From a virus, in the IMG/VR virus record IMGVR_UViG_3300035180_000355, positions 1 to 20,694 of that record: a stretch of DNA of 20,694 bases. One strand, written 5' to 3'. Below are positions 1,828-18,413 of the stretch, in pieces (position 1 is the first letter of the stretch; each line of letters opens with the position of its first letter). Both the position numbers and the translations under genes were made by a program. The notes under the pieces are model-generated. The model was not told the origin of the DNA, did no database searches, and saw only the letters and a list, made by a program, of their open reading frames with translations.

Positions 1828-1869
1828 TCTTGTCAGAAAGCCGTCCTTGCGCTCTCAGTGGAGAATCAC

Positions 1870-3816
1870 ATGACCTCGAGCATTCCCGCCTCGTATTTCG
1901 TCAATGTCCAGCCCAGTGTTCTGGCTGCCGAAAGTACGGGGCCTGCACTTAATGGCTTGCTGCTGACCAACGGCACGCGCGTGCCGATTGGCCAAGTGCT
2001 GTCATTCCCCAGTGCCTCATCTGTTGCAACATACTTCGGGGCGTCGTCGTCTGAGGCCGCGTTTGCCGCGCAGTATTTTGCGGGGGTAACTAATGCTAGC
2101 CAGCAACCCGGCGCGTTGCTGATCACACAATATCCGGAGACGGGAGCCGCCGCTTGGTTGCGTGGCGGATCTATCGCATCGTTGCCCCTGACTTCGCTGC
2201 AAGCGATCTCTGGCACGCTGAATGTCACGGTGGATGGCTACGTGCGCTCTGCGGCATCCGTTAATCTGTCCACCGCCACCAGCTTCAGCGCTGCTGCAGC
2301 GATTATTCAGACGGACTTGAATGCGACGTTGCCAGTCATTGGCACCAGCACGGCTAGCTCGATTGTGACGAATACGGCAACGCAGGCAACGATTAGCGGC
2401 AACATTCTCACTATCCCGAGTGGATCGACCGTTACGGGCATGTTCATCCCGGGACAAACCATCACTGGCGGGACGATCCTTGCCGGGACTACCATTACCG
2501 GATTTGGCACCGGCACCGGCGGCATCGGCACCTATACGGTGAGCGTGTCTCAGAACGTATCGGCAACGACGATTACCGGCAGCGGTGCCACTCTCACTGT
2601 GGGAGGCACCGTCACGGGCACCTGGGCGATCGGTCAGACCGTCACCGGTGGCTCTGTTGCCGCCAATACGCAAATCATTGGTCTGGGCACCGGCAAAGGC
2701 GGCGCCGGCACTTACTTTGTGAGCGTGGCGCAGACCGTTTCTAGTGCCGCGCTAAGCAGTGAGGCTACTCCCGTCGCAGTAACTTATGACACTGTCTCTG
2801 GGGCATTCCTGATCACGTCTGGCGTTGCGATCGGCGCGGCATCGTCGATCGCGTTTGCTTCAGGCACTGCGGCGGCGCCCCTGATGCTCACTCAGGCGAC
2901 GGGAGCGGTTACCAGCCAAGGCGCGGCACCAGCGACGCCTGCAACATTCATGCCCGCTGTAGTGGCGCAGACTAGTAACTGGGCGACTTTCACGACGCTC
3001 TGGGAGCCGTCGATCTCTGAAGCGCTCGCCTTCGCAGCATGGAATAGTTTGCAAAATAACCTTTTCGCCTACCTGGCATGGGATACTGACCCGACTGTTG
3101 TTGGCGCCCCTGGCGCTTTCACAGGTCTCGGCCAGCAGATTATTGCGGCAGGAGGTGGCAGCACGCATCTGATCTATTCGCCAAATAATCTTTCGGCCAC
3201 AGCCGCTTTTGTCATGGCATTTGCGGCATCGCTGGTGTTCACACAAACTAACGGGCGCGCAACGCTTGCCTATAAGTCGGCACCAAACCTTGTGCCAGAC
3301 GTCAGCGATTCGCTGTCCCTGTCGAACCTCATAGCCAATGGCTATAATGCCTATTGTGCGGTGGCAACGGCAAAGCAGCAGTCTAACTACTACTATCCGG
3401 GCCAGATCACGGGTTCTTTCTCGTGGTTTGACACTTATGCAAATCAGATCTGGCTCAACTTGAGTTTCCAGAGCGATATGCTACAACTGCTCACGCAGGT
3501 TCAGTCGATCCCTTACAATGCGGACGGAGATGCGCTCATTCGTGCCGCAGTGCAAGGCACGATCACGCAGGCGGCGAATTTCGGCATCTGCCGTGCCGGC
3601 GTGGCGCTTTCTCCGTCCCAGATTGCAGATGTCAACCTTGCGGCGGGCAAGGTTATCGCGCCGACGCTCGCAGCGCAGGGATGGTATCTGTTGTCCAATG
3701 CGGCGGGAACGGCGCCAAGTGTGCGGCAGGCGCGGGGATCGCCGCCATTCGAGTTCTGGTATGTGGACGGTGAGTCTGTGCAGACGTTGAATCTGCAATC
3801 GGTTGTCCTTCAGTAG
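1870..3816 (+). CDS. DUF3383-like contractile tail sheath protein
   Basis: A 648-residue protein starting MTSSIPASYFVNVQPSVLAA, directly preceded by GGAG (1860-1863); an in-frame GTG at 1858 is rejected because it would overlap this ribosome site. The N-terminus (FVNVQPSVLAA, GLLLTNGTRVPIG, FPSASSVATYFG, SSEAAFAAQYF) and C-terminus (PPFEFWYVDGESVQTLNLQS) match DUF3383 proteins, the sheath of myophages with this gene order. The centre holds NSLQNNLFAYLAWDTDP, STHLIYSPNN and SNYYYPGQITGSFSW, typical of the conserved sheath core. Family members I recall are near 500 residues; the excess is explained by about 128 Gly/Thr-rich residues (about 171-298) forming two tandem copies of the module also found in the neck and baseplate J proteins. 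Sheath subunits polymerise on the tube and contract at infection. It is followed directly by the tube gene, as expected. Confidence 0.88.
   Translation: MTSSIPASYFVNVQPSVLAAESTGPALNGLLLTNGTRVPIGQVLSFPSASSVATYFGASSSEAAFAAQYFAGVTNASQQPGALLITQYPETGAAAWLRGGSIASLPLTSLQAISGTLNVTVDGYVRSAASVNLSTATSFSAAAAIIQTDLNATLPVIGTSTASSIVTNTATQATISGNILTIPSGSTVTGMFIPGQTITGGTILAGTTITGFGTGTGGIGTYTVSVSQNVSATTITGSGATLTVGGTVTGTWAIGQTVTGGSVAANTQIIGLGTGKGGAGTYFVSVAQTVSSAALSSEATPVAVTYDTVSGAFLITSGVAIGAASSIAFASGTAAAPLMLTQATGAVTSQGAAPATPATFMPAVVAQTSNWATFTTLWEPSISEALAFAAWNSLQNNLFAYLAWDTDPTVVGAPGAFTGLGQQIIAAGGGSTHLIYSPNNLSATAAFVMAFAASLVFTQTNGRATLAYKSAPNLVPDVSDSLSLSNLIANGYNAYCAVATAKQQSNYYYPGQITGSFSWFDTYANQIWLNLSFQSDMLQLLTQVQSIPYNADGDALIRAAVQGTITQAANFGICRAGVALSPSQIADVNLAAGKVIAPTLAAQGWYLLSNAAGTAPSVRQARGSPPFEFWYVDGESVQTLNLQSVVLQ
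2380..2763 (+). repeat. Two tandem shared beta modules inside the sheath gene
   Basis: Two consecutive related segments: 2380-2574 with ISGNILTIPSGSTVTGMFIP, GGTILAGTTITGFGTG and GGIGTYTVSVSQNVS; and 2575-2763 with SGATLTVGGTVTGTWAIGQT, GSVAANTQIIGLGTG and GGAGTYFVSVAQTVS. They are homologous to each other and to the neck-protein module. Boundaries are approximate because the ends are low in complexity. In a sheath, an insertion of this size most plausibly sits on the outer surface. Confidence 0.72.
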
Positions 3817-4863: not shown

Positions 4864-6603
4864 ATGCCAACTGTGGTTGACTCCCTTCTCGTCGCTTTGT
4901 CGCTTGATTCATCGGCGTTTGTGAAGGGCCAGAAAGAAGCGCAGGAGAGTATGCGGAAGACGCGCGAAAGCGCGGATAAGACCGCAAAGGAGCTGCACGA
5001 AAAAGGCCAGCTTGGCGCGGAGTTCTTTGGCAAGATCCGAAGCAGCGCCATTGCTATGTTTTCCGTGTTTACCGCAGGAGTTGGCCTAAAGGATTTCATC
5101 CGCGATACCACGAGAACCAATCTGGCGCTAGGATATATGGCGACCAACCTAGGCGCTTCAGTTGAGAAACTGTCTGCGTGGCAGCAGATCGCCGAGCGGG
5201 CAGGCGGTAGTGCGGGCGACCTGACGCAATCGATGCAAGCCCTGGTCTCGCATTTTGAGACCATGAAGTTCGGACCTGATCCAGAAGCAGGCGCGCTTGG
5301 CTTCCTTGGCCTAACTCCAGACGATCTGCAACATGCCGACCGAGGGTTGATGAAGCTGGCGGCCACTGCTCAGCGTATGAGCGCGCCGGACTTCATGAAA
5401 TGGACGAGTCAAATTGGCATCGCGCCAAGCGTGGCCAATGTGCTGCGGCAAGGTCCGGCAGCCGTGCAGAAGATGCTCGACGAGCAGGAGAAGCTCGGTG
5501 TCCGGACGAAAGAAGAAACCGAAGCATCCAAACAACTCTATGACGCATGGATCGGGCTGACGCAGGTTTCTAGATCCCTTGGCAATGTTTTATTTGATCA
5601 TGTCGCCCCGGCGTTGACTGCGGTCTTGAATGCGCTTACAGGCCTCGGCAAGTTCTTTCTTAACCACAGGATGGCACTTGACTTTATAGGCGCCAGTATG
5701 GGCGCCATTTCGCTTGCGCTTGCAGTCACGAAAGTTGGAGCTGCGTTTATGTTCCTAGCGCGGGCGATCGGCCTGGCAGGGCCGGCGCTTGCTAGCACGG
5801 GGCTTGCCGGCGGCGCCGGCGCAGCAGCTGGCGGCGTGATGGGATCATTGTTGCGGTGGATGCCGTGGCTTGCTGGTCTCGCTGCGTTGTTTGCCCCGAC
5901 AAACAATACGCCGGATTCGGCAGAGGAACAGCGCATTCTTCACGGCGGGGCGCTAAGGCCGTCAAGCTCTGGTGGCGGTAATCTGTTTATCGGTTCCGCG
6001 CAGGGCGCTGAACTGCCATCTGCTCAGGGTGGCGACCTGTTGGCGCAAATCCGTAAGCGCGAAGGCTTTTCGCCGACGGCTTACTGGGACAACAAGCAGT
6101 GGTCGATCGGCTACGGAACGCGGGCATCATCCAGCACCGAGACGATCTCGCGCGAGGAAGCCGAGGCGAGATTGCGGCGGGAGGTGGCAAGCTCTTCTGC
6201 CACCGTCGATGCTCTTGCGCGCAGTTTCGGCCTCACGCTCAACAGCAACCAGCGCGAGGCGCTGACTGACTTTGCCTACAACTTGGGAGGAGGTGCGCTC
6301 CGCGGTTTACTCTCGCAGGCCAATGGGAACCTAGGCGTTATCCCGGGGCTGATGCAAGAATACAATCATGCTGGCGGACAAGTGAACGAAGGCCTAACTA
6401 TGCGGCGTCTGTGGGAAGGCCGACTATTTGCGACGCCAGCCCAATTTGCCGGGGCGAGTGGAGGCGGTGGCGCACAAACGACCAATATCGGCGTCATCAA
6501 TGTCCACACTCAGGCCACCGATGCTAGGGGCATCGCACGCGATATACGCCACGCACTCAACCGGTATAGCCTGGTGACGCAAGCAAACGCAGGACTCAGC
6601 TGA
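4864..6603 (+). CDS. Tape measure protein with C-terminal GH24 lysozyme domain
   Basis: A 579-residue protein preceded by GGAG (4854-4857). N-terminus VVDSLLVALSLDSSAFVKG is the usual tape-measure start ('L...L.LD...F..G'), followed by a heptad-rich helix (KGQKEAQESMRKTRESADKT). Residues about 270-345 are strongly hydrophobic and Ala/Gly-rich, as in the membrane-active part of other tape measures. From about residue 390 there is a GH24 (T4-type) lysozyme domain: KREGFSPTAYWDNKQWSIGYGT. Glu400 and Asp409 have the same spacing as T4 lysozyme Glu11 and Asp20; the Thr26 position is occupied by Ser414. The domain ends with MRRLWEGRLF near 513-522. The protein sets tail length and is expected to leave the tube at infection, where the lysozyme would open peptidoglycan. 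Its stop overlaps the next ATG (TGATG). Confidence 0.87.
   Translation: MPTVVDSLLVALSLDSSAFVKGQKEAQESMRKTRESADKTAKELHEKGQLGAEFFGKIRSSAIAMFSVFTAGVGLKDFIRDTTRTNLALGYMATNLGASVEKLSAWQQIAERAGGSAGDLTQSMQALVSHFETMKFGPDPEAGALGFLGLTPDDLQHADRGLMKLAATAQRMSAPDFMKWTSQIGIAPSVANVLRQGPAAVQKMLDEQEKLGVRTKEETEASKQLYDAWIGLTQVSRSLGNVLFDHVAPALTAVLNALTGLGKFFLNHRMALDFIGASMGAISLALAVTKVGAAFMFLARAIGLAGPALASTGLAGGAGAAAGGVMGSLLRWMPWLAGLAALFAPTNNTPDSAEEQRILHGGALRPSSSGGGNLFIGSAQGAELPSAQGGDLLAQIRKREGFSPTAYWDNKQWSIGYGTRASSSTETISREEAEARLRREVASSSATVDALARSFGLTLNSNQREALTDFAYNLGGGALRGLLSQANGNLGVIPGLMQEYNHAGGQVNEGLTMRRLWEGRLFATPAQFAGASGGGGAQTTNIGVINVHTQATDARGIARDIRHALNRYSLVTQANAGLS
6040..6438 (+). other. GH24 lysozyme domain within the tape measure gene
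   Basis: Domain span about residues 393-525 of the tape measure protein. Visible hallmarks are REGF (Glu400), AYWDN (Asp409), SIGYGTRAS, the SREEAEARLRREV helix, LNSNQREALTDFAYNLGGGA (the N..Q..AL..FA.N.G..A signature of GH24) and a closing RRLWEGRLF. All positions needed for activity are present except that Ser replaces the third catalytic-site Thr, a conservative change. Confidence 0.85.
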
Positions 6604-7402: not shown

Positions 7403-7708
7403 ATGCTTCTTCAGATCATTCCATTGCAGGCTGTTCCGAATCAGACAGTTAATGTCAGTCTGGGCAAACAAGCCTGCTCGCTGCACGTTTATCAGAAGGC
7501 GTTTGGTCTGTTTATGGACGTCTATGCGAACGGCTCATTGATTATTGGCGGCGTCATTTGCGAGAACGCAAACAGAATTGTGCGCGATGCCTATCTCGGG
7601 TTCGTCGGCGATCTGGCTTTCTGGGATACGCAAGGCGCAAGTGATCCGGATTACACTGGCCTTGGCGGGCGGTTCCTTCTGTTCTACAACGGCCCAAGCT
7701 CAGCATGA
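7403..7708 (+). CDS. Baseplate plug family protein (DUF6983-like)
   Basis: A 101-residue beta-rich protein: IIPLQAVPNQTVNVSLGKQA near the start, then CSLHVYQKAFGLFMDVYANG, LIIGGVICENANRIV and finally GLGGRFLLFYNG. The 'IPL...PNQ....L......L...........D(V/I)...G..L..G......R.......GF.G.L...D..G..DP.Y.GLG.R..L.Y' pattern fits the phage baseplate plug family, short proteins that sit next to the hub gene. The stop overlaps the hub ATG (ATGA, 7705-7708), consistent with coupled synthesis of interacting baseplate subunits. Family call is from remembered pattern; no alignment was run. Confidence 0.72.
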   Translation: MLLQIIPLQAVPNQTVNVSLGKQACSLHVYQKAFGLFMDVYANGSLIIGGVICENANRIVRDAYLGFVGDLAFWDTQGASDPDYTGLGGRFLLFYNGPSSA

Positions 7709-8616
7709 CCGGCACATCTGAATACGTAAAGCGGGCGATCGAGGTCACGTTCCGCCTTACCGGAACGCAGAAGCCGATCACGTTTGGGACAGGCCACGGC
7801 ACCAATAATACGGCGACTTTCAGCGGAATGCGTATTCAGGCGCATATCCGCAAGGTTGGCGGGTCCAGCATGCCCACCGCAGAAGTCCGGGCATACGGGT
7901 TGCCTTTGAGCGTGATGAATGCGCTTTCCACTATAGGGAAATACCTCTATCAGAGCAACGGAAACGAGATTACGATAAAAGCGGGCAATGTTGGAGGTCC
8001 GCTTTCGACCGTATTCGTTGGCAATATTCAGCAAGCCTTCTTCGATGCGGCAGAGGCGCCCGACATAGCTTTCGTTGTCGTCGCCTATGTTGGCCCGTTG
8101 CAGATGATGGCGCCAATTCCGCCAACCAGTTATGCCGGCAGCGTCGATGCGGCAGTAGTGCTGCATCGCCTAGCCACGACCATGGGACTTTCGTTTGAGA
8201 ATAGCCTGCCGGGGCCAGTTATGCTATCGGGCGGATACTATCCCGGCACAGCAAGGCAACAGGCCGAAGCGGTTGCTCGTGCGGCTGGTATTTCGATCTT
8301 TTACGATGACACGACTGGAACAATGGCAGTCTTTCCAAAGAATGGCAGCCGCAACACGCGTATTCCGCTGATTTCTCCAGAGACTGGCCTGATCGGTTAT
8401 CCGATATATCAACAGGCGGGCATGACCTTCACTACGCTATACAATCCGCAAATCGTCTGTAATGGCAAGGTCAAAATTCAATCAACTCTCCAACCAGCAT
8501 GCGGCACCTGGACGACCATTTCGCTGGATCATACGCTCGAGAGCGAAACGCCGGACGGAGCCTGGTTCACGGTCGTTCAGTGTATGCAGTATGGCTTTGT
8601 CCCAGACGGAGGTTAG
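7705..8616 (+). CDS. Baseplate hub protein
   Basis: A 303-residue protein. Landmarks are EYVKRAIEVTFRLTG, a strand block FSGMRIQAHIRKVGGSSMPT, AEVRAYGLPLSVMNALST, ISAGN-like segment NEITIKAGN, VFVGNIQQAFFDAAEAPDI and later FYDDTTGTMAVFPKNG and PIYQQAGMTFTTLYNP, ending SETPDGAWFTVVQC. The combination 'I.A...K.GG...P.A...IYGL....MN.L........N.I.I.AG......VF.G.I..A..D' is typical of hub proteins (gp27/gpD-like fold) in this phage type. The hub links tube to spike, and the spike gene follows three bases later. Moderate-to-good confidence in the role; the precise subfamily is not identified. Confidence 0.78.
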   Translation: MTGTSEYVKRAIEVTFRLTGTQKPITFGTGHGTNNTATFSGMRIQAHIRKVGGSSMPTAEVRAYGLPLSVMNALSTIGKYLYQSNGNEITIKAGNVGGPLSTVFVGNIQQAFFDAAEAPDIAFVVVAYVGPLQMMAPIPPTSYAGSVDAAVVLHRLATTMGLSFENSLPGPVMLSGGYYPGTARQQAEAVARAAGISIFYDDTTGTMAVFPKNGSRNTRIPLISPETGLIGYPIYQQAGMTFTTLYNPQIVCNGKVKIQSTLQPACGTWTTISLDHTLESETPDGAWFTVVQCMQYGFVPDGG

Positions 8617-8619
8617 CGG

Positions 8620-9231
8620 ATGGCAGGTCCGACCTACACGGGCGCGCAGGATGCCACTTCGGACATATCCGATTTCAATGCGTTATCCTTCGTGATTAGG
8701 CAGATCCTTGCTACTGTGCCAGGATCAACGGTAGTGCAGGTGGTGGCGGTCAATAGTAGTGGTGTCGCGCCGGTGGGATTTGTTGATGTGCACCCGCTGA
8801 TCAACCAAATGTCTGGAAACGGCATTCCTATGCCCCATGGAGTCATTCACAATTTGCCTTTCTTCCGGCTGCAAGGTGGTGCCAACGCGGTCATCTGTGA
8901 TCCAGTAGCCGGTGATATCGGGCTAGCCGTTTTCATTGACCGCGACGCCTCCCGTGTAAAAGCAACGCGAGCGCAGGCCAATCCTGGATCGGCGCGGCAG
9001 CATGACTGGGCAGACGGCTTCTACCTCGGCGGCTACCTCAATGCAGCGCCCACTAGTTATGTGCAATTTGTGAACAACACGATCAATATCATCGCGCAAG
9101 GTGCAATCACGATAGTGTCTTCCGGCCCGGTGGCGGTTTCTGCGCCGGCGTTGACCCACAACGGCGTGAACGTCGGCGCGACGCATGTCCACTCCGACCC
9201 GCAGGGCGGAAGCACGGGCGTGCCTCACTGA
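8620..9231 (+). CDS. Gp138-type membrane-puncturing tail spike
   Basis: A 203-residue protein with GGAGG at 8608-8612, seven bases from ATG. The N-terminal half has LSFVIRQILATVPGSTVVQV, GFVDVHPLINQMSGNGIPMP and a VICDPVAGDIGLAVFIDRD strand block, i.e. an OB-like domain as in phi92 gp138. A short beta-helix stretch follows (NNTINIIAQGAITIVSSGPV, AVSAPALTHNGVNVG). It ends with THVHSDPQGGSTGVPH; His189-x-His191 matches the HxH motif that coordinates a metal ion at the tip of P2 gpV- and gp138-type spikes. The trimer would sit under the hub and pierce the outer membrane, which argues for a Gram-negative host. Strong family resemblance and ideal position. Confidence 0.9.
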   Translation: MAGPTYTGAQDATSDISDFNALSFVIRQILATVPGSTVVQVVAVNSSGVAPVGFVDVHPLINQMSGNGIPMPHGVIHNLPFFRLQGGANAVICDPVAGDIGLAVFIDRDASRVKATRAQANPGSARQHDWADGFYLGGYLNAAPTSYVQFVNNTINIIAQGAITIVSSGPVAVSAPALTHNGVNVGATHVHSDPQGGSTGVPH

Positions 9232-9350: not shown

Positions 9351-9465
9351 CAAGGCAAGCATGGCGGGCCAAACAGGCGTGGCGAGGCCGGCACGGCGAG
9401 GCAATGCGCGGCGAGGCAATGCGCGGCGAGGCTGAGCGGGGCGATGCTGGCGTGGCGATGCAAGG
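9351..9465 (+). repeat. G-rich imperfect direct-repeat array
   Basis: The 15-base unit GGCGAGGCAATGCGC occurs perfectly at 9395-9409 and 9410-9424, followed by a degenerate third copy at 9425-9439 (GGCGAGGCTGAGCGG). Related shorter units flank it: GGCGAGGCCGGCAC at 9381-9394, GGCAAGGCAAGCAT at 9351-9364 and GGCGTGGCGATGC near 9450. The + strand is strongly purine/G biased here. Cause and function are unknown; slipped-strand expansion of a short seed would explain it. Confidence 0.8.
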
Positions 9466-9564: not shown

Positions 9565-9912
9565 ATGCAAACCCTAGCTCTTGATGCGAATTGGGACGTC
9601 TTCGCCGATGCCGTCGGCAATATTGCCGTGGCGACGGAACCATATGCGCTCGCGCAGGATGCAGCAAGCGCCGTCAAAACCTTCGCTGGAGAAGTCTACT
9701 ATAACACTTCACTTGGCATTCCGTATTTTGCTGATGTGCTTGGTAAAATGCCGCCGCTAGAGCTTCTTCGCGAATACTTTATTGCTGCGGCATTAACAGT
9801 GCCGGGTGTGGCATCAGCGACGGTATTCTTCAGCTCGATCAGCAAGCGCACAGTGACTGGTCAGATAAACATCACTGATAATTCAGGGGTAACAACCAGT
9901 GTCGGGTTCTAG
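9565..9912 (+). CDS. Gp25-like baseplate wedge protein
   Basis: A 115-residue protein starting MQTLALDANWDVFADAVGNI. ATG 9565 was chosen over an in-frame ATG at 9499 because the extra 22 residues would cover the hairpin and are unlike the family; AGGGAA at 9549-9554 lies upstream. It contains AQDAASAVKTFAGEVYYNTS followed by LGIPYFADVLGK, the 'A.....T..GE..YN...GIPY...ILG' core of gp25/W-like wedge proteins, then LLREYFIAAALTVPGV and a C-terminal strand pair. It is half of the conserved wedge pair with the baseplate J protein encoded directly after it, whose GTG start overlaps this gene by 14 bases. Confidence 0.86.
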   Translation: MQTLALDANWDVFADAVGNIAVATEPYALAQDAASAVKTFAGEVYYNTSLGIPYFADVLGKMPPLELLREYFIAAALTVPGVASATVFFSSISKRTVTGQINITDNSGVTTSVGF

Positions 9913-11773
9913 CACGTCAGTCCCGCCTCCGGTTTTCGGTGCAACGGGTTTCGTGGCTCCTGCTGAGTCAGCGATCCTGGCCGGCGTTCAGGCCGACATC
10001 AATGCCGCGTTCGGAGGCGCCCTCAATCCAGGACTTACTACTCCGCAGGGCCAACTCGCGTCTAGCGCAGCCGCAATCATTGGCAATGCCAACGATATGT
10101 TCCTCGCGCTCGCAAACGGAGTGGATCCTGCATACGCCAGCGGCCGGATGCAGGACGCGATCGGCCGCATTTACTTTCTGACTAGATTGCCTGATCAATC
10201 AACCGTAACGCAAGTCACCTGCACTGGTCTAGCTAACACTCAAATCCCGACCGGGGCACTAATCCAGGCTCTGGACAGCAACTTATATTATTGTTTAAGC
10301 GGAGGCACAATTCCTGCATCCGGAGCAATTACACTACCGTTTGCCTGTCAGGTAACCGGGCCAATTGCTTGTCCAGCGCAGACGTTTACCATCTATGGCA
10401 CGATTTCTGGATGGGATACGGCGGTCAGCACGGCAGATGGCGTGCTCGGAAGCTCGGTTGAGAGCCGCTCTGCGTTTGAGACGCGGCGCCAGCAAACCGT
10501 GATGGCAAACGCTGCCGGATTTACGAGCGCCATTCTCGGCTCGCTCCTCGGCAATGATCCTGTGACTGGTGCGCAGAATGTTCCTGGCATTCTCGATGCG
10601 CTGGTAGTAGATAATGCAAACTCCTACCCAGTCGGCTTCGGGCCGCAGGCCGTTATCATCGGCTCGATTTCGGGCACAACGTTGACCGTGTCGCTGGTCA
10701 GCTCTGGCGCAGTGGCTATCGGTCAATCGGTGACTGGATCAGATGGCCTCGGCGTCCCTGTGGCCGCAGGCACTACCATAGTGTCGGGAAGCGGCAGCAC
10801 TTGGACCGTTAATATTTCGCAGAATGTTCCCAGCACGACGCTGAACCTCGGCGGGGTCATTCTCTCTCCTAATTCAGTCTATGTGGCCGCGCTAGGTGGC
10901 ACTGATACCGCTGTGGCGCAGGCGATCTGGCGGAAAAAGCCGCCGGGCTGCGCTTATACCGGCAATACGTCAGTCACTGTCTATGCCACCAATATTCAGT
11001 ATCCGTCGCCTGGGGTGCCCTATACTGTGACGTTTGAACGGCCCGCTGCTCTGCCCTTCGTGGTGGCGGTCACTATTGCCAATGGTCCACTTGTTCCAAG
11101 CAACGCCACTTCGCTGATCCAAGCCGCGATTATTGCAGCTTTCGCTGGTGCAGACGGCGGCCCTCGCGCGCGCATCGGATCGACCGTCTTGGCTTCGAGG
11201 TTCTATTCTGGCCTGGCCGCTTTGGGTTCCTGGGTGGAAATTGTATCTCTGCTCCTGGGATCGACCAATGCACCGGCAGCCACTATGACGGCCTCGATCG
11301 GCGCTAGTTTTACCGGCACCGGTTCAGGCACCAGTCTAACTGTTACGAATGCAACGGGGCGCATTAGTATTCAGGATGTGGTGGTGGGGAATGGAGTGCC
11401 TGCGGGCACGTATATTGTTTCCCAAACTAGTGGCACCGCTGGCGGCAATGGCGTTTACGTGACATCCCAGGCAACGACCGCCAATAATTCTGCGCTAACC
11501 ACGACTTCGTCAGTGCTAAATGTGACTGCTGTTCAAAGTGGCGCTCTTGCAGCAGGCCAGGTGCTGTTTGCGACGGGTATTACTGACGGGACAACCGTCC
11601 TTTCTCAAACTAGTGGCACTGCTGGTGGCATCGGGACATACACGATCACGCCCAGCCAGAGCTTTGCCCCCGCTCCGGTGACTGCGGTTTCTGCTACGCT
11701 GACCCGCGTTCAAGCATCGATCGCTCAAGCGCCAGTCATCACTGCAAACACAATCCAGGTAACGTTGCTATGA
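9899..11773 (+). CDS. Baseplate J-like wedge protein with inserted beta modules
   Basis: A 624-residue protein with a GTG start at 9899 preceded by AGGGG (9885-9889). Early segments FGATGFVAPAESAILAGVQA, DINAAFGGALNPGLTTPQGQ and GRMQDAIGRIYFLTR are characteristic of baseplate J / Mu gp47-like proteins; later parts include SAFETRRQQTVMANAAGFTS, a QNVPGILDALVVDNA segment, VYVAALGGTDTAVAQAI and FERPAALPFVVAVTI. Two insertions of the shared beta module enlarge it: one about residues 252-322 and a longer double one about 461-600. The latter carries SQTSGTAGGNGVYVTSQ and SQTSGTAGGIGTYTITPSQ. The protein forms the baseplate wedge ring with gp25. Its TGA overlaps the next ATG (ATGA), placing a tail spike gene in the same transcript. 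Confidence 0.87.
   Translation: MSGSSTSVPPPVFGATGFVAPAESAILAGVQADINAAFGGALNPGLTTPQGQLASSAAAIIGNANDMFLALANGVDPAYASGRMQDAIGRIYFLTRLPDQSTVTQVTCTGLANTQIPTGALIQALDSNLYYCLSGGTIPASGAITLPFACQVTGPIACPAQTFTIYGTISGWDTAVSTADGVLGSSVESRSAFETRRQQTVMANAAGFTSAILGSLLGNDPVTGAQNVPGILDALVVDNANSYPVGFGPQAVIIGSISGTTLTVSLVSSGAVAIGQSVTGSDGLGVPVAAGTTIVSGSGSTWTVNISQNVPSTTLNLGGVILSPNSVYVAALGGTDTAVAQAIWRKKPPGCAYTGNTSVTVYATNIQYPSPGVPYTVTFERPAALPFVVAVTIANGPLVPSNATSLIQAAIIAAFAGADGGPRARIGSTVLASRFYSGLAALGSWVEIVSLLLGSTNAPAATMTASIGASFTGTGSGTSLTVTNATGRISIQDVVVGNGVPAGTYIVSQTSGTAGGNGVYVTSQATTANNSALTTTSSVLNVTAVQSGALAAGQVLFATGITDGTTVLSQTSGTAGGIGTYTITPSQSFAPAPVTAVSATLTRVQASIAQAPVITANTIQVTLL
10649..10863 (+). other. Shared beta module, first copy in baseplate J gene (diverged)
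   Basis: Encodes IIGSISGTTLTVSLVSSGAV, then AIGQSVTGSDGLGVPVAAGT, TIVSGSGSTWTVNISQNVPS and TTLNLGG before the J sequence resumes at SPNSVYVAALGG. It keeps the order 'SG..LTV / AIGQ.V.G / AAGT.IV / GS..TV..SQNV' but lacks the GTGxGGxGTY tract, so it is a diverged copy. Confidence 0.6.
11279..11698 (+). repeat. Shared beta modules, tandem pair in baseplate J gene
   Basis: Two consecutive related segments within J. The first includes TGSGTSLTVTNATGRISIQD, VVVGNGVPAGTYIVSQTSG and GTAGGNGVYVTSQATT; the second SVLNVTAVQSGALAAGQVLF, ATGITDGTTVLSQTSG and GTAGGIGTYTITPSQS. At DNA level the two share a near-identical core with CAAACTAGTGGCAC followed by GCTGGYGGCA, at about 11423-11446 and 11607-11630, pointing to fairly recent duplication. 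Confidence 0.7.
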
Positions 11774-13902
11774 ACAAGTTTCCTCGGTTTCTGATCGGCA
11801 TCGTGGCTTTGGCCTTGCCCGCTGTGGCGGCTGCGCAAAGCCCTGTTGCGCCGTCTTCAGCCGGCCCGTTCTATGCGCCAAATTGGTATACCGGATACAC
11901 GCCGACATCGTTGCAGTGGAAATACCTGCTCAGCAACAAGATGGACTATTTCCCCAGCGGCATCCCGTTGCAATATGGCGGCACTGGGGTCACATCGCTG
12001 TCTGCGCTGCAATCTCTGCTCGCTTCTTCTCCAGCCCCGGGTGCGTTCTCGTCCCTATCCGTAAGCGGAAACGACTCGATTGACGGAACGCTCAACGTGA
12101 CCGGAACGGCAACTTTTGCCGGCTCAGTCTCCGGTGCAGGCATCTCGCCTGCCGGTGCCACAACTCTTCGCTCGCTCTCTGCGCGCTTTGCAGAAACGGA
12201 GAACGTCCTGGACTTCGGTGCCAAGGGCGACGGAGTAACTGATGACACCGCTGCAATTCAGGCTGCTGAAAACGCTTGCCCCGCAACTGGTTGCATACTT
12301 TACTTCCCGCCTGGGCACACGTATGGCATCAAGTCTGCAATCTTGCTTTCATCCAATACACACGTTGTGGCCTACGGCGCGACGATACTTGATATCGGCG
12401 GCCAGACGGGGTTGTTTACAAATCTGCACAACACCGCCACGACGTTGACTGACAGCAACATCACCATTGAAGGTGGCACTTATGACTACGGCGCATCAAT
12501 GGCTAATGGTGGACAGCACGCCATTCAATTCAATTTTGTCAAGCATGCCCAGGTCCTCAATGCAATCGGGCAGGGACGAGGCGCACTAACTCCGGCCACA
12601 GGAACTTTCACCGTTTCTGGTGGACAAGTTACGAGTGTCAGCTTGACCAGTGGCGGTTCGACGTATGTAAACGGCACTTACAACGGATTGCTGATCTTTA
12701 ACGGCGCCGGAGGAAGTGGGGCCAGCGGCAGCTATACGGCATCTGGCGGCGCAGTAACGTCAGTATCCATAACGAATGGCGGCTCTGGTTATACTAACGG
12801 GACTTATCCGCTGACGTTTGCATCAGGTGCCGGTGACTTTGTGGCTATGATAGGCTGCGATGATGTTCTGGTCCAAGGCAACTCTGCATTTGGCTTTGAT
12901 AATGCCGCATACGACTTCTGGTGGGCGCCGACAAACGTACGCCTGATTGGCAATTACGCGATTTCGGGTGAGTCAGCTCAGATGGTAAACTTTAATCCTG
13001 ATCCGACCTTCGGCAGCAGTACGGGCTTGGTGGCAAATGGATTTGTCATGTCTGGCAATACTTTCGTTGCCACGAGCGCAAATGCCATTCCAATGCAATT
13101 GGAGCCACTAGCTAGCGGAAGCGCAGTCAAGAATGTATCAGTCACGGGCAACGTGTTCAACAATGTCTATTTGGTCTCTCGGGGAGCAATGCTGGGTGAG
13201 ACGATTAGCAGCAACATGTTCGTCAACGTTGCTGGGGGTGTCTCAGCTGTTTTCTCATACCCGAACTATGGCAGCACTCCAGACTCCATTACGGTTTCAG
13301 GCAACTCGTTTGTAAACCCACAGACGGCGGCAGGAAACTTGGCCGTCATTTTCTTGTCTGCTACCAATTCATCCATTACCGGCAACATCATTAGTGGATC
13401 GTCTTATTACGCGGCTACCTACACCGGCACATATCCCGTCGTGATCAGTGGCAACAGTTTCCCAAGCAGTGCCTACCAAAACACCGGCTCAGCGTGGATT
13501 TCAGAAAACGGTCCGTTTATCGTGACTGGGAACGCCTCGATTGGCGGGACGCTCGGAATAACTGGGAAGGCCACGTTCAGTGGCCTTGTCTCAGTGTCCT
13601 CAGCAACAGGCATCACAGCGCATGCTGGCGGCGGCCAGGCTTCAGCAACGCCGCTTGTAGCGCAGGTCAATCTCGTGTCCACCGTGGCAACGGCGGCGGA
13701 TAGCGTGAAACTTCCCGCGAGCGCATCAGGGTTGTGTATCACGGTGATCAACGGCGCAGCCAACGCCTTGCAGCTATTCGGCGCTGGATCCGACACGATC
13801 AATGGCGCAGCGGCTGCGACAGGCGTGAGTGTGGCAGCCGGCAAAACCGGGCATTACTGTTCCGCCGCTGCTGGCACCTGGTTCGGCGGCACGCTAAATT
13901 AG
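11770..13902 (+). CDS. Pectate-lyase-fold tail spike with N-terminal signal peptide
   Basis: A 710-residue protein. Residues 1-22 form a classical Sec signal: Lys2/Arg6, a hydrophobic core (FLIGIVALALPAVA) and a cleavable AAA-Q end. Next comes a fibre-like region with LQYGGTGVTSL and LNVTGTATFAGSVSGAG. Residues 145-160, NVLDFGAKGDGVTDDT, are the signature of the Pectate_lyase_3 right-handed beta-helix found in phage tail spikes; many 'ITGN.F' turns follow (SGNTFVATS, VTGNVFNNV, VSGNSFVNP, ITGNIISGS). Residues about 283-347 hold a duplicated GGxVTSVS motif. A C-terminal cap of about 57 residues begins GLCITVINGAANALQLFGAG and ends with TWFGGTLN. It may bind or degrade a surface polysaccharide; no catalytic residues can be assigned. 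A signal peptide on a tail spike encoded by an ATGA overlap with the J gene is very unusual. Confidence 0.82.
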   Translation: MNKFPRFLIGIVALALPAVAAAQSPVAPSSAGPFYAPNWYTGYTPTSLQWKYLLSNKMDYFPSGIPLQYGGTGVTSLSALQSLLASSPAPGAFSSLSVSGNDSIDGTLNVTGTATFAGSVSGAGISPAGATTLRSLSARFAETENVLDFGAKGDGVTDDTAAIQAAENACPATGCILYFPPGHTYGIKSAILLSSNTHVVAYGATILDIGGQTGLFTNLHNTATTLTDSNITIEGGTYDYGASMANGGQHAIQFNFVKHAQVLNAIGQGRGALTPATGTFTVSGGQVTSVSLTSGGSTYVNGTYNGLLIFNGAGGSGASGSYTASGGAVTSVSITNGGSGYTNGTYPLTFASGAGDFVAMIGCDDVLVQGNSAFGFDNAAYDFWWAPTNVRLIGNYAISGESAQMVNFNPDPTFGSSTGLVANGFVMSGNTFVATSANAIPMQLEPLASGSAVKNVSVTGNVFNNVYLVSRGAMLGETISSNMFVNVAGGVSAVFSYPNYGSTPDSITVSGNSFVNPQTAAGNLAVIFLSATNSSITGNIISGSSYYAATYTGTYPVVISGNSFPSSAYQNTGSAWISENGPFIVTGNASIGGTLGITGKATFSGLVSVSSATGITAHAGGGQASATPLVAQVNLVSTVATAADSVKLPASASGLCITVINGAANALQLFGAGSDTINGAAAATGVSVAAGKTGHYCSAAAGTWFGGTLN
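12616..12810 (+). repeat. Duplicated GGxVTSVS / GGSxYxNGTY motif in tail spike
   Basis: Two units in the beta-helix: SGGQVTSVSLTSGGSTYVNG (from 12616) and SGGAVTSVSITNGGSGYTNG (from 12742), separated by a Gly/Ser-rich linker. The DNA is clearly related but diverged at third positions, so the duplication is not recent. The 'GG.VTSV.(L/I)T.GGS.Y.NGTY' unit is a recurrent element of phage fibre proteins. Confidence 0.75.
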
Positions 13903-13967
13903 TAGCCTACTTTGGGGCCGCGCACAGTCAACGGCATCCAACACTACCTGCCAGTATGGTGATCAAC

Positions 13968-14246
13968 ATGCGTTCTCTTCTCTTCGCATCTCTTCTGACA
14001 TTCCCCGTTGCGGCCTATGCACAGGAGCCATCGCCGCAGATCTTTCCGCTGCCTGCCCAAGTGTTCCAGCACGTAATCATGTTCCTGCAACAGGGCGGCA
14101 CGCATGCCGAAGGGCAGGCACTGGCTGAGCAGCTTATCGACTTGGCGCGTCAGCAGATGGCAGCGCAGGCCAAGCCAGCGGCCCCGCCGGCCACGCTCCC
14201 GGCTTCTCCGACCAAACCCACTGAGCCGAAAGCCAAGCAGCCGTGA
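13968..14246 (+). CDS. Small exported protein of unknown function
   Basis: A 92-residue protein starting MRSLLFASLLTFPVAAYAQE, a textbook signal peptide with cleavage expected after AYA. An in-frame ATG at 13956 would add MVIN; I prefer 13968 because it puts the basic residue at the N-terminus, but neither start has a clear ribosome site. The mature part has one predicted helix-rich block (FQHVIMFLQQGGTHAEGQAL, then AEQLIDLARQQMAA) and a Pro/Ala/Lys-rich tail with repeated PA and KP pairs. No cysteine and no known family. It sits between the tail spike and the DUF2612 baseplate gene and shares a GTGA overlap with the latter, so it is co-translated with virion proteins. Could be a spike-associated factor or a cargo gene. 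Confidence 0.62.
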   Translation: MRSLLFASLLTFPVAAYAQEPSPQIFPLPAQVFQHVIMFLQQGGTHAEGQALAEQLIDLARQQMAAQAKPAAPPATLPASPTKPTEPKAKQP

Positions 14247-14872
14247 GCGGCTCGGGCGCTATTGGCGAGGCGGACTTTGGAACTCTGACTATTGGTGGCT
14301 CGCCATTTAACTGGTGGGCCACCATTCAGAGCCAATACGCCAACAGCCCGCACCTCCTGGCAATCATCCAGGCTTTCGCCAGCGCAATGGACCAGACGCA
14401 GAACGTAGCGAACTTCCATGACCTGCTCTGGAATATTGAGACAGCACAAGGCTACGGACTAGACGTTTGGGGCCGCATTGTTGGAGTTGGTCGCGTTATT
14501 CCAATCAGCGTGCAACAAACCTATCTCGGGTTTGAGCAGATGGGACCACCTAATGCTTCCGGGTTCGACCAAGCGCCATTCTATTCCGGTCAGCCAACCA
14601 CGCAGAACTACGCGCTGCTTGACAATGAATATCGGACGGTCATTCTCGCCAAAGCACTAGCCAATATCTGCGATGGCACTGTGCCCGGACTTAATGCAAT
14701 TTTGCAATTACTATTCCCTGGTCGTGGTCCGTGTTATGTCGTCGATGGCTTGAACATGACGATGCGATATGTTTTCGGATTCCCGTTGACCGCAGTGGAA
14801 ACCTCCATCGTGCAAAACTCAGGGGTTTTGCCTCGACCGGCTGGCGTCACAATGTCATTTGTTTTCTCGTAG
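14243..14872 (+). CDS. DUF2612-like baseplate protein
   Basis: A 209-residue protein with a GTG start overlapping the previous stop (GTGA). Motifs: SPHLLAIIQAFASAMDQTQN, NFHDLLWNIETAQGYGLDVW and GRIVGVGRVI, then FGFEQ-like LGFEQMGPPNASGFDQAPFY, and LLDNEYRTVILAKALANICD with TVPGLNAILQLLFPGRG. The 'A.GYGLD.WG.IVGV.R.....' and 'L.D..YR..I..KA..N..DGT.P..N..L..LF' blocks are diagnostic for the DUF2612 family, which replaces P2 gpI-like proteins at the baseplate periphery of myophages with gp25/J wedges. It likely connects wedge and fibre. In the usual order it directly follows J; here two exported-protein genes intervene. Confidence 0.87.
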   Translation: MSGSGAIGEADFGTLTIGGSPFNWWATIQSQYANSPHLLAIIQAFASAMDQTQNVANFHDLLWNIETAQGYGLDVWGRIVGVGRVIPISVQQTYLGFEQMGPPNASGFDQAPFYSGQPTTQNYALLDNEYRTVILAKALANICDGTVPGLNAILQLLFPGRGPCYVVDGLNMTMRYVFGFPLTAVETSIVQNSGVLPRPAGVTMSFVFS

Positions 14873-14882
14873 GACGTTGATT

Positions 14883-16109
14883 ATGCAGGCAAGTCAAATC
14901 CCGACGAAAATACCCACTCCGTTTGCATCGTCTGCAGGCGCAGATTACGTGGCGACGATCCCGCAGGCAACTGCCGCGCCGGGCCGAGCATCCTTTGTCA
15001 CTGGATTCCCTCCTGTGACTTTCCTCCCCGGTTCCGCTGGTGGCATCAATCCGGATGGCAGAGATTTCAATGGCATCCTGCAAGCCTGCACCGCGTGGCT
15101 GCAATGGCAGAACGCGGGCGGCCCTATCTGTTATGATGCGGCATTCTCGCAAGCCATTGGTGGTTATCCTGCCGGTGCAATCCTGTCGAGCAATCCACTT
15201 GGGGGGTTGTGGCTTTCTACCGTCGATAACAACACCAGTGATCCAGACGCGGGTGGCGCCAACTGGTCGAGGATTTTGCCGGGTCAGTGGACTGCCGGCC
15301 CGGTCTCATCGGTAGTTGGGCCTACGATTAGCGGTGGTGTGCTGACGACGCAGTGGCGAGCTGGCACCGTTTTATCGGTGGTTGGCGCTACGATCAATAA
15401 CAACACTCTGACGACGCAATGGACGGCCGGCCCGGTTTCGTCAGTAGTGGGTGGAACAGTCAGCGGTGGCGCGTTGACAATGCAGTGGACGGCTGGCCCA
15501 GTCTCGTCAGTAGTTGGAGGCACGGTCAGCGGTGGCGTGCTGACGGTTTCGGATATTCCGTCTGCCGCCGTTGCCTTTACTACCCCGGGCAGCACGCTTT
15601 GGACAGTTCCGGCCGGCGTAACACGCGCGCTAGTAACGGTCATTGGCGGTGGCGGCGGTGGCGGCGCCACTTATGGTGGTGGCGGCGGCGCTGGTGGCTA
15701 TGCGTTTGGTCTGGTGACCGGGCTAACGCCTGGGAGCCAGATTACAGTCACGGTCGGCAGTGGCGGGATCGGTGCCAACACTTCCGGCGGCAATAGCACT
15801 AACGGCGGCACTAGCTCATTTGGCAATTACATGACTGCCACCGGTGGAGCGGGCGGCACCTCCGCCATCGGCGGCCTGGGTGGTTCTGGCACCGGCGGGG
15901 CGCTGAATATGGGAGGTTCTGCCGGGATGAACGCCGGCTACGGAGTTTCCACCAACCCCGCTTTTATGGGTGGCAACGGTGGCGGACCCGGAGGCGGTCT
16001 TGGCAGCCTTACTGGCACCGGAGGGAACGGAGCAGGTTACGGGGGCGGCGGCGCGGGCGGCAACGGCGGCGGCAATGGCGCTGGTGGCTTCGTCATGGTG
16101 GAGTATTGA
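14883..16109 (+). CDS. Tail fibre with repeat shaft and glycine-rich tip
   Basis: A 408-residue protein. ATG 14883 (MQASQIPTKIPTPFASSAGA) is preferred to an upstream in-frame start at 14859 that lies in the DUF2612 gene. Residues about 18-130 form the common fibre attachment domain (ATIPQATAAPGRASFVTGFP, GGINPDGRDFNGILQACTAW, LQWQNAGGPICYD, AIGGYPAGAIL, VDNNTSDPDAGGANW). Residues 135-222 are four tandem 22-residue repeats. Then FTTPGSTLWTVPAGVTRALV leads into a glycine-rich domain with poly-Gly runs (IGGGGGGGATYGGGGGAGG) to the end GAGGFVMVEY. That is the phage glycine-rich domain, probably packed as polyglycine-II helices like tip adhesins of some fibres. It would recognise the host surface. 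A fibre-assembly-like gene follows two bases later. Confidence 0.82.
   Translation: MQASQIPTKIPTPFASSAGADYVATIPQATAAPGRASFVTGFPPVTFLPGSAGGINPDGRDFNGILQACTAWLQWQNAGGPICYDAAFSQAIGGYPAGAILSSNPLGGLWLSTVDNNTSDPDAGGANWSRILPGQWTAGPVSSVVGPTISGGVLTTQWRAGTVLSVVGATINNNTLTTQWTAGPVSSVVGGTVSGGALTMQWTAGPVSSVVGGTVSGGVLTVSDIPSAAVAFTTPGSTLWTVPAGVTRALVTVIGGGGGGGATYGGGGGAGGYAFGLVTGLTPGSQITVTVGSGGIGANTSGGNSTNGGTSSFGNYMTATGGAGGTSAIGGLGGSGTGGALNMGGSAGMNAGYGVSTNPAFMGGNGGGPGGGLGSLTGTGGNGAGYGGGGAGGNGGGNGAGGFVMVEY
15285..15548 (+). repeat. Four tandem 66-base repeats in tail fibre gene
   Basis: Four units of exactly 66 bases (15285, 15351, 15417 and 15483), each encoding 22 residues with the pattern QW(T/R)AGxVxSVVGxTxxxxxLT. 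Units 3 and 4 are nearly identical (QWTAGPVSSVVGGTVSGG), unit 2 is the most diverged (RAGTVLSVVGATINNN). They form the shaft between attachment and glycine-rich domains; copy number could vary by recombination. Confidence 0.92.
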
Positions 16110-16111
16110 GC

Positions 16112-16627
16112 ATGTATGCACGCATTCAAAATGGCGTTGTCGTCGAGATGTTCACCCCACCATCTGGTGCGACGCTTGCGGAGTGTTTCCATGCCGACGT
16201 AGCAGCGCAGTTTGTTGAAGTGCCTTCTGGCGTGGCGCCTGCTCAGGGCTGGACGTATGATGGCAAGACGTTCGCACCTCCACCGCCGCCTCCAGAACCC
16301 ACGCTCCCCCAGCAAGCCGCCGCGCTACTCGGAACGGGCCTCGCCATCACCAGCACGGCGACCCCGGCGCTGAACGCCACGTATCCGGCCACCCCAGCAG
16401 TGCAACAGCAGGTCATTGCTGAGGTCACGTCGATCCTGCTCAATGGCACATTCGCGGACGGCACCAGCACGATCGAGTGGCCTGATGTGACCGGGGTCGG
16501 GCATGCCTTCACGGTCGCGCAATTCAAAGCGCTGGCATCCGCGATCGCGGCTTTCGTATCGGGCTGCGTCAAGTGCCTCAACGGGCAATCGACAACACTG
16601 CCCAGCGCAACAGCGACGATCCCCTAA
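16112..16627 (+). CDS. Probable tail fibre assembly protein
   Basis: A 171-residue protein. ATG 16112 (MYARIQNGVVVEMFTPPSGA) is chosen over an in-frame TTG at 16106 because GGAG at 16099-16102 is well placed for it. The N-terminal domain 'MYA.I.NGVVVE...P......F......F..VP.GV..GW.YDG..F.PP' followed by a proline-rich hinge (APPPPPPEPTLPQQ) is the usual architecture of fibre-associated chaperone-like proteins. The C-terminal half (QQQVIAEVTSILLNGTFADG, WPDVTGVGHAFTVAQFKALA) resembles the DUF4376-type domain often attached to such genes. It directly follows the fibre gene, the standard location. Direct evidence for chaperone activity is lacking; it could instead be a minor fibre component. Confidence 0.65.
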   Translation: MYARIQNGVVVEMFTPPSGATLAECFHADVAAQFVEVPSGVAPAQGWTYDGKTFAPPPPPPEPTLPQQAAALLGTGLAITSTATPALNATYPATPAVQQQVIAEVTSILLNGTFADGTSTIEWPDVTGVGHAFTVAQFKALASAIAAFVSGCVKCLNGQSTTLPSATATIP

Positions 16628-16634
16628 CGCTACC

Positions 16635-16946
16635 ATGACTGTCTTGTCAACATATCTCGGCAGAGTGTTTGATGCGCTCGACGTTTTGCTGAATGCCTTG
16701 GTCTATCCGGGCGCGCGGCTCAAGCAAACCGTTTCGGTGCATGCGGCACTTGATAGGCGGAAGGGGAAGCGTGTAGGATGTATGTTGTGCGCTATCCTGG
16801 GGGTGCTGGTGCAACCCCACCACTGCGACCAGGTGCTGACGCAGGCGCCAATGCCGGCTGGCGCGGCGGTCCGCGCGGCACTGCTGCTCGCTGCAATTTG
16901 GAGTCTTATTGGCTGGGGCGTATCTATAATCTGCCACCACCTGTGA
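16635..16946 (+). CDS. Small phage membrane protein of unknown function
   Basis: A 103-residue protein starting MTVLSTYLGRVFDALDVLLN. The N-terminal half, 'ALD.LLNAL......KQT(V/I)S..AAL', followed by a cysteine motif GCMLCAILGVL and PHHCDQV, resembles small proteins of unknown function that I recall near fibre and lysis genes of Gram-negative phages. The C-terminal part AAVRAALLLAAIWSLIGWGV (79-98) is one hydrophobic membrane-spanning segment. There is no signal peptide; a single C-terminal anchor is predicted. ATG 16635 begins the recognisable part; an upstream extension to 16503 lies in the preceding gene. No clear ribosome site. It may belong to the lysis set, but I would not name a function. 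Confidence 0.6.
   Translation: MTVLSTYLGRVFDALDVLLNALVYPGARLKQTVSVHAALDRRKGKRVGCMLCAILGVLVQPHHCDQVLTQAPMPAGAAVRAALLLAAIWSLIGWGVSIICHHL
16925..16930 (+). promoter_or_regulatory. Possible -10 element upstream of exported gene pair
   Basis: A perfect TATAAT lies 30 bases before the ATG at 16960, inside the end of the preceding gene. No acceptable -35 is found at 16-18 base spacing (the nearest TTGGAG at 16898 is 21 bases away) and there is no extended -10 TG. It is therefore only a candidate for separate transcription of the two exported-protein genes. Confidence 0.25.
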
Positions 16947-16959
16947 TAGGAGCAGAATA

Positions 16960-17430
16960 ATGCCGCGTTTTCTGATCGCCGCCGCAATGCTGGCACTGTT
17001 TGCCGCTGATGCCTATGCTCAGACGCCGCCACCGACCAATCCAGCTTCTGCGGCAGTATTTCCTTATTGCTGGGATTCTGTAACGCAGGCCTACGCAGCT
17101 TGTGGCTCTGGGCACACAGGCGGACAGGCGACGACTACTCCGCCCGCCGTCACCGGTTTCGGAACGCTTGCACTGGGCAATACAAGCACGGCTCTATCGA
17201 CGCTTTCGCTGGGGCCGAATAGTGCAGCATGGCCGGCCCAGCCGGGGATGGTCTACGTTATGAACTCGACGACCTCCGCCGGACCGATTTATGTTTGCCC
17301 GCTGGGGGGCACATGCACGGCAGCGAATGGCATCCCGATCGCGGTGGGGCAGTGGTATGGGTTCTATCGGCCCGCCAGCGGCATGACGGCCATTGCCCCT
17401 TCGACTGCGACGGTGGAGGTTCAGTACTAA
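16960..17430 (+). CDS. Exported beta-rich protein with four cysteines
   Basis: A 156-residue protein preceded by AGGAG at 16948-16952, a good ribosome site. MPRFLIAAAMLALFAADAYA followed by QTP is a typical Sec signal. The mature part has a proline/threonine linker, then FGTLALGNTSTALSTLSLG, MVYVMNSTTSAGPIYVCPLG and AIAPSTATVEVQ, a beta-sandwich-like sequence reminiscent of capping domains on phage fibres. Cys37/Cys48 and Cys113/Cys119 could form two disulfides, fitting an oxidising periplasm. The signal shares the PRFLI start with that of the tail spike gene about 5 kb upstream. Stop overlaps the next start (TAATG), so it is coupled to a second exported, glycine-rich protein. Function unknown; adhesin subunit or lysogenic-conversion factor are the options I would weigh. 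Confidence 0.65.
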   Translation: MPRFLIAAAMLALFAADAYAQTPPPTNPASAAVFPYCWDSVTQAYAACGSGHTGGQATTTPPAVTGFGTLALGNTSTALSTLSLGPNSAAWPAQPGMVYVMNSTTSAGPIYVCPLGGTCTAANGIPIAVGQWYGFYRPASGMTAIAPSTATVEVQY

Positions 17431-18413
17431 TGATGCGCAAGATTTTGCTGGCTACTGTATTCCTCCCGGCGGTGGCATGGGCGCAGCCGGGGCCGATCCC
17501 GTCGTCTACGGACGTGCAGAGCTGGTCTACGCCCGGAACGTATACTTGGATCAATCGGCGCCCGATGGGCACCTGTACGGCGTATCTCGCGAGCGGTGGC
17601 GCATCCGGGGGCGGCGGCGGGACGATTGCATCCGGAAACTCGGGGTCTGGCGGGGGTGGCGGCGGGGCTGGCGCGCTTCGCATCGTCGGGCCGATTGCGG
17701 CGTCTGCTTTGCCAGCCACCGCGACGGTTGTGGTTGGGGCCGGTGGTGCGCAGACAGCAGCCGGGGCGAACGGCAACACTGGCGGTGTCTCCAGCATTGC
17801 GTGGGGTCTAGCCGCTCCATACGAGACAGCTTACGCAGGTGGTGGCGGTGGCTACGGCTCACAGGGCGCGGCGAGCGCGGGCGGGAACGGCCCGGGGACG
17901 AACGCGAGTACTACCAGCAGTAACGGCTCTGCTACTGGGGGCGGAGCATATTATAGTCCGGCCGGTGGGACTGGTGGATTAGGGTCCGGTCCAGTATCGG
18001 GTGGGCTTGGGCAAGTTATTCTTGGCCCCGGTGGCGGCGGCACCAGCGCAACCGGAACGGCAAATGGTGTTTATACGCTTCCTAACATTCCCGGCAGCGG
18101 CTCGAGTGGTGGTGGACTTAACGCTGGCACTGCTACCGCCGGGGCCGGGGGCACTATCAGTCATATGCCGCCAGCGACGGCAGGCGCAGCGGGCGGCGGT
18201 GCGGGCGGCAACGGCGCCAGCAACACTCTCTGGCCGGCTGGTCCGCCTGGCCAAGGTGGCGCAGGCGGTGGCGGCAATGCCAACGGGGTTGGTGGCGCAG
18301 GCGGCGCAGGCGGCTCTCCCGGCGGTGGTGGTGGCGGCGGTGGTTCGGGCACTGGCGGCGGTGGCACTGGCGGTGCCGGGGGCAACGGGATGGTCGTGGT
18401 GGTGTGCCGGTAA
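17430..18413 (+). CDS. Exported glycine-rich adhesin-like protein
   Basis: A 327-residue protein. ATG 17430 overlaps the previous TAA, with GGAGG at 17415-17419; a second ATG follows at once at 17433. MRKILLATVFLPAVAWAQPG is a signal peptide with an AWA-Q cleavage site. After VQSWSTPGTYTWINRRPMGT the rest is dominated by glycine (ASGGASGGGGG, NSGSGGGGGGAGA, AGGGGGYGSQGAA, SPGGGGGGGGSGTGGGG), ending GGNGMVVVVCR. The 'W..PGTYTW ... G-rich ... GG.G.VVV' layout is that of the phage glycine-rich domain also present in the tail fibre of this window (which ends GAGGFVMVEY). Cys near residue 49 and the penultimate Cys could form a disulfide closing the domain. Possible second receptor-binding protein or surface adhesin; the signal peptide is the unexplained part. 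Confidence 0.7.
   Translation: MMRKILLATVFLPAVAWAQPGPIPSSTDVQSWSTPGTYTWINRRPMGTCTAYLASGGASGGGGGTIASGNSGSGGGGGGAGALRIVGPIAASALPATATVVVGAGGAQTAAGANGNTGGVSSIAWGLAAPYETAYAGGGGGYGSQGAASAGGNGPGTNASTTSSNGSATGGGAYYSPAGGTGGLGSGPVSGGLGQVILGPGGGGTSATGTANGVYTLPNIPGSGSSGGGLNAGTATAGAGGTISHMPPATAGAAGGGAGGNGASNTLWPAGPPGQGGAGGGGNANGVGGAGGAGGSPGGGGGGGGSGTGGGGTGGAGGNGMVVVVCR

Follow-up and report, generated by a model that had tools for sequence, protein, structure and literature searches.

In the textbook view tailed phages are built wholly in the cytoplasm and freed by lysis. The locus described here raises the question of why such a phage should carry export leaders on genes lying among those for its baseplate and fibres. 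The stretch of DNA analysed, here called the window, is a 20,694-base IMG/VR virus fragment with a contractile-tail module containing sheath (DUF3383), tube, tape measure, hub, J, DUF2612, fibres and a GH108 endolysin, Table 1. The first-pass annotation had picked out four genes, starting at 11770, 13968, 16960 and 17430 (A, B, C and D below), as having a basic start, a hydrophobic core and an AxA-Q end, and had suggested surface display, late decoration of virions in the periplasm or after lysis, receptor masking or a part in Sec-timed lysis as their role.

Table 1. Coordinates of the baseplate, fibre and leader-bearing genes of the window. A hyphen marks the predicted cleavage site of each signal peptide.
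Feature	Position	Strand	Remarks
Baseplate hub, E217 gp41-like	7705..8616	+	PF22759, E 1.8e-14
Baseplate J-like wedge, coupled to gene A	9899..11773	+	PF04865, phrog_6
Gene A, 710-aa exported tailspike-type fibre (predicted)	11770..13902	+	Fam1 N-terminal domain, PF12708 beta-helix
Sec/SPI signal peptide of A	11770..11838	+	Predicted cleavage AAA-Q
Gene B, 92-aa small predicted-exported protein	13968..14246	+	4-base overlap with DUF2612
Sec/SPI signal peptide of B	13968..14021	+	AYA-Q
DUF2612 baseplate wedge	14243..14872	+	PF11041, E 2.8e-59
Fam2 tail fibre without leader	14883..16109	+	Docking N-terminal domain and glycine-rich C-terminal domain PF21722
DUF4376, tail-fibre-assembly-chaperone-like, without leader, behind leaderless fibre 14883	16112..16627	+	
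Gene C, 156-aa predicted-exported protein	16960..17430	+	4 cysteines in mature part
Sec/SPI signal peptide of C	16960..17019	+	AYA-Q
Gene D, 327-aa glycine-rich predicted-exported protein	17430..18413	+	Cysteines 49 and 326
Sec/SPI signal peptide of D	17430..17483	+	AWA-Q

All four leaders are present by a rule-based test of n-region charge, a 9-residue uncharged core and an AxA site; the rule accepts OmpA, MalE, DsbA, PhoA, OmpF and PelB and rejects LacZ and SecY. The leaders read MNKFPRFLIGIVALALPAVAAA for A, MRSLLFASLLTFPVAAYA for B, MPRFLIAAAMLALFAADAYA for C and MMRKILLATVFLPAVAWA for D, with cleavage predicted before QSPV, QEPS, QTPP and QPGP respectively, and their sequences are of the textbook Sec/signal-peptidase-I type. 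For A the rule's own best cleavage site lies a few residues before AAA-Q. The PRFLI start said to be common to two leaders is that of A and C. A rule-based scan of the window found leaders in 3 of 51 plus-strand ORFs (A, C and a weak match at 6603) and in none of 61 on the minus strand; B and D pass at their own starts, which lie over 60 codons into longer open frames. The claimed overlaps of 1-4 bases are real, J and A sharing ATGA, B and DUF2612 sharing GTGA and C and D overlapping by one base in TAATG, and they support the boundaries of the leader genes. C shows no coupling to its upstream neighbour and B has possible earlier in-frame starts at ATG 13956 and GTG 13959. Paired cysteines had been ascribed to three of the proteins. 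This holds for C and D, the latter with two in its mature part, but not for A, which has five; B has none. Residues 145-224 of A match the pectate-lyase-like beta-helix PF12708 (E 8.2e-12), making it by domain content a probable tailspike with a putative polysaccharide-degrading function.

The E217 gp41-like hub identifies the baseplate of the window as being of the E217/Pa193 type. The window's J is matched in 454 phage records, of which 295 are Pseudomonas. In Pseudomonas phage Pa193 an N-terminal bead docks the fibre on the wedge protein gp46 via loops 38-52 (PMC11042391). As in Pa193, the fibre gene of the window comes after the wedge genes, and from this gene order the DUF2612 gene is likely to be the fibre-attachment wedge and analogue of gp46. 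The fibre at 14883 has no leader, starting MQASQIPTK without a hydrophobic core.

Several other features of the module were observed. The tape measure (4864-6603) contains a phage lysozyme domain, PF00959, at residues 398-518. Several copies of the motif GTGGIGTYTVxxSQ and its variants are found in the tail terminator (1009-1827), the sheath (1858-3816) and J; these inserts resemble a common surface beta-module in otherwise unrelated tail proteins. G+C-rich 15-base tandem repeats (CGGCGAGGCAATGCG) occupy 9374-9462. They fall in a gap of about 300 bases with no obvious gene, after the gene whose end is at 9231 and before the next gene for a baseplate protein. A 66-base tandem repeat at 15408-15544, inside the leaderless fibre, encodes TAGPVSSVVGxTxSGGxLTxQW.

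Relatives were found using DUF2612 as the anchor gene, giving 27 + 80 viral and 80 genome loci, of which 163 are non-identical; related sequences in all counts given here are not independent of each other. A rule-based scan of the relatives showed that leader-bearing ORFs concentrate downstream of DUF2612, on the coding strand only. Of the 99 fully covered loci, 47 had one or more leader genes not shorter than 150 aa between +0.3 and +6 kb, against 2 of 99 for the opposite strand, while upstream of DUF2612 five of these loci had a leader gene on the coding strand and three on the opposite one. By source, the downstream leader gene occurred in 31 of 49 IMG/VR contigs and 11 of 34 Acetobacteraceae prophages. 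An exported-type gene directly after J and before DUF2612 was found in L109, L112, L135, L123, L124, L114, L142 and L152. The set is found in relatives in part: the order of J, a coupled leader-bearing fibre and DUF2612 recurs, but B, C and D matched nothing in the fetched loci, the Fam1 domain included. L109 has an 87-aa leader-bearing gene where the window has B, a match of position for which no sequence similarity is claimed. No relatives of C were found in the viral contigs searched, and tblastn of D against isolated phages gave no match. The case for B, C and D thus rests on their own sequences and position, and their place among virion parts is a guess from position. D was also considered as an oxidised counterpart of the glycine-rich domain in 14883, an idea that was dropped, the similarity being low complexity only.

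Two fibre families, Fam1 and Fam2, dominate the leader loci. Fam1 usually has the leader (42 of 50 by the rule, to which inspection by eye adds two; in another set that partly overlaps the first, 70 of 79). Its defining mature N-terminal domain, PNWxxGxxPTxxQW...NKxDY behind the leader, is present in A; the mature starts are mostly QSSPxxxYGQVPTAxQW and the proteins reach 1,639 aa, with a Peptidase_S74 fibre chaperone among their domains. The rare leaderless members start MGSSPN or MGNSPG. At about 8979 in L234 a Fam1 protein starts MGAQSSPGW, retaining the AQ of the cleavage site, which looks like secondary loss of the leader. A matches the Fam1 profile with E 7e-10 in a single-sequence search and is, on sequence comparison, a divergent Fam1 member with L109 and L135, which have homologues at the same position, as intermediates. 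The Fam1 domain gave no Pfam match and only one weak match in PHROGs, and a fold search with its model (pLDDT 82) found no solved structural relative. With a match in 5 of 397 genomes, Fam1 is uncommon in the order of Bradyrhizobium. At about 8405-9000 in L112, directly behind an exported fibre, lies a tail-fibre-assembly-chaperone-like protein with a signal peptide and a cysteine pair. The idea that every exported fibre is accompanied by an exported assembly chaperone was not upheld, this being the only case and 23 other chaperone-like proteins having no leader.

Fam2 is the first fibre after DUF2612 and is represented by 161 copies. The leader is absent from 141 of these (14883 and 140 others), which start directly with M-xxSxIPxKF. 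In the other 20 the leader is fused exactly at the start of the leaderless protein, and in five of them the former start Met survives at the cleavage site or close to it. A cysteine pair at alignment columns 65/86 is found in 10 leader copies and a second at columns 49/98 in five; the 141 copies without a leader have neither (per-column Fisher p of 7.6e-11 and 1.8e-5, respectively). Both members of a pair are present or both absent, without exception. In the numbering of mature L139 a disulfide Cys37-Cys58 is predicted. Parsimony gives eight changes of leader state against 19 in shuffles. The tree is weakly resolved with few supported branches, so eight is a parsimony count and a single origin may be compatible with the supported branches.

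All 87 Fam2 domains tested match phrog_12796, a tail fibre family, and gp31 of Burkholderia phage Bcep781, annotated as a tail fibre, is a homologue. Unlike the leader copies, the matches in isolated phages, Bcep781 included, begin behind the leader. The model of the mature domain (pLDDT 94) has as its best solved match chain 2 of the Pa193 baseplate/tail fibre (E 6e-4, TM 0.62), so that the N-terminal fibre domain of Pa193 gp47 (PDB 9b45; PMC11042391) has the same fold; no leader is described for gp47 in the parts of that paper concerned with it, unlike in the leader copies of Fam2. The best named matches in a viral library were myophage tail fibres, and the Fam2 profile gave no match to Protein Data Bank sequences. 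Conserved columns are retained equally with the leader (0.82) and without it (0.83). Exactly one Fam2 was present in each of 10 leader-Fam2 phage contigs checked, which are 15.5 to 89 kb long and possibly incomplete. Wherever the gene after a leader-bearing Fam2 is readable, it bears a leader too. Leader-bearing proteins of 231-264 aa also occur in leader-Fam2 phages (L026 13727-14518, L146 15040-15810, L139 14435-15127 and L183 16292-17011); some start GFYxGV or GWYLGV and look by eye like small outer-membrane barrels, with no Pfam match. These are possible exclusion proteins.

Even numbers of cysteines are known to characterise proteins that undergo oxidation in the periplasm. Even and odd counts in the mature parts stand at 38:2 for leader-bearing Fam1, which has two further covarying cysteine pairs, 11:1 for leader-bearing Fam2 and 36:6 for other leader proteins, compared with 38:68 for leaderless Fam2 and 146:179 for upstream tail genes. 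After clustering, 58 leader proteins are even and nine odd (p 3.4e-10). C and D of the window fit this pattern; A has an odd count and B no cysteines. Since every tailed-phage fibre is eventually extracellular, oxidation at a late stage would not by itself explain why the pairs are restricted to copies with a leader. Export of the leader proteins is well supported by the leaders themselves, the cysteine pairs restricted to leader copies, the even counts and the leaderless homologues that start at the cleavage point.

Given this, we consider it probable that the leaders are functional Sec/signal-peptidase-I signals on genuine fibres and spikes that would be cleaved, oxidised and finally docked at lysis. 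The fibres would pass the inner membrane via Sec, and removal of the leader by signal peptidase I would leave a mature N-terminus equal to that of an ordinary cytoplasmic fibre. Trimerisation and disulfide formation would follow in the periplasm, where the fibres would remain while heads, tails and baseplates undergo their usual cytoplasmic assembly. At lysis, fibreless or partly fibred virions would meet the ready fibres, which would dock on the baseplate wedge; in T4 and P22, fibres or tailspikes can join finished particles in vitro. The scheme in the window would be mixed, with 14883 and the DUF4376 chaperone cytoplasmic and the spike A together with B, C and D exported. Two points in the window count against this reading, namely the odd number of mature cysteines in A and their absence from B. 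Among the roles first proposed, late decoration in the periplasm or after lysis fits best, since what is exported in Fam2 of the relatives is the domain for baseplate attachment, which shows no decay; attachment after export is suggested by this conservation. A part in Sec-timed lysis was rejected, as the GH108 endolysin at 19933 starts without a leader and no lytic domain was recognised on the exported proteins. Surface display or receptor masking may still apply, most of all to the smaller proteins.

The exported proteins could instead serve the infected or lysogenic cell as secreted or surface factors, acting in receptor masking, superinfection exclusion or capsule degradation or as adhesins, and not virion parts at all. 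The signal peptides are genuine, the pectate-lyase-like domain of A would be plausible in a free depolymerase, and there are precedents, lambda Lom for one, for phage proteins that are exported without being part of the virion (PMC12309495). The window also has a leaderless Fam2 fibre, so its virion need not use the exported ones; in phages combining leaderless Fam2 with exported Fam1, the window among them, the exported proteins could serve a non-virion use. However, the Fam2 docking domain is under equal constraint with and without the leader and has the fold of a baseplate-attached fibre, no second Fam2 was present in the leader-Fam2 contigs, the exported spike of L140 ends in the fibre chaperone Peptidase_S74, and both families have leaderless members in the same region. 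That the exported fibres reach the virion accounts most simply for an intact docking domain and for the lack of a cytoplasmic counterpart in the same contig, and we regard a purely non-virion role as unlikely.

Inefficient or competing targeting might alternatively keep some of the fibre in the cytoplasm for assembly, the exported part having a separate role. An ATG near the cleavage site in 7 of 20 Fam2 leaders, in some cases the ancestral Met retained, would allow this, but such an ATG is found in only 2 of 42 Fam1 leaders and a recognisable ribosome-binding site in none, which makes dual translation starts unlikely for most leader fibres. The leader-only cysteine pairs further imply that the fibre does its work in the oxidised form, and we judge a dual location to be distinctly improbable. 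Hydrophobic N-termini can act in oligomerisation or membrane contact, but that the leader is such a structural, membrane-binding or baseplate-binding element of a virion fibre is very hard to sustain given the n-h-c architecture with AxA-Q in the relatives, the clean fusion at the homologous start, and the cysteine pairs and even counts confined to leader proteins.

Coat proteins of a virion made with Sec signal peptides are familiar from pIII and pVIII of filamentous phage. These are membrane-anchored and the whole virion is assembled at the membrane without lysis, whereas the export proposed here is of fibres only. Lambda Lom (PMC12309495) and the fOg44 endolysin (PMC4640515) are likewise phage proteins with signal peptides but, unlike the leader fibres, are not virion fibres. 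We found no report of Sec-exported tail fibres of tailed phages in the openly licensed papers searched, and no proteomics for any relative with a leader. Judged by J and DUF2612, the isolated phage closest to the window is Acetobacter phage phiAO1, whose Fam2 fibre, unlike the leader copies, has no leader; a leader is predicted for PhiAO1_380, a spike-like gene of 820 aa that comes last in the fibre region. This myophage comes from an inducible culture-collection strain, Acetobacter orleanensis NBRC 3170, and was induced with mitomycin, and particles were seen, yet it is predicted to be a degenerate prophage (PMC8566455). An annotated catalase gene lies on the opposite strand inside its tail module (L273 2463-4586). 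The infectious phage phiAP1 has a related spike for which the annotated start gives no leader.

Prophages with leader-bearing fibres are present in named bacteria (Bradyrhizobium oropedii, with Fam1 and Fam2 in strain Pear76, Rhizobium, Acetobacter, Gluconobacter and Asaia), so direct testing of the exported-fibre idea is possible. The broader proposition, which we hold to be evenly balanced, is that a widespread group of tailed phages finishes its virions outside the cytoplasm with Sec-secreted fibres that form their disulfides in the periplasm and are loaded at lysis, the leader having been gained and lost on pre-existing fibres and in some genomes being carried by every recognised fibre. 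If true, Sec-exported fibres would mean a second assembly compartment for tailed phages, disulfides would become usable in their receptor-binding proteins, and a leader together with an even number of cysteines would be a simple genomic mark for such fibres.
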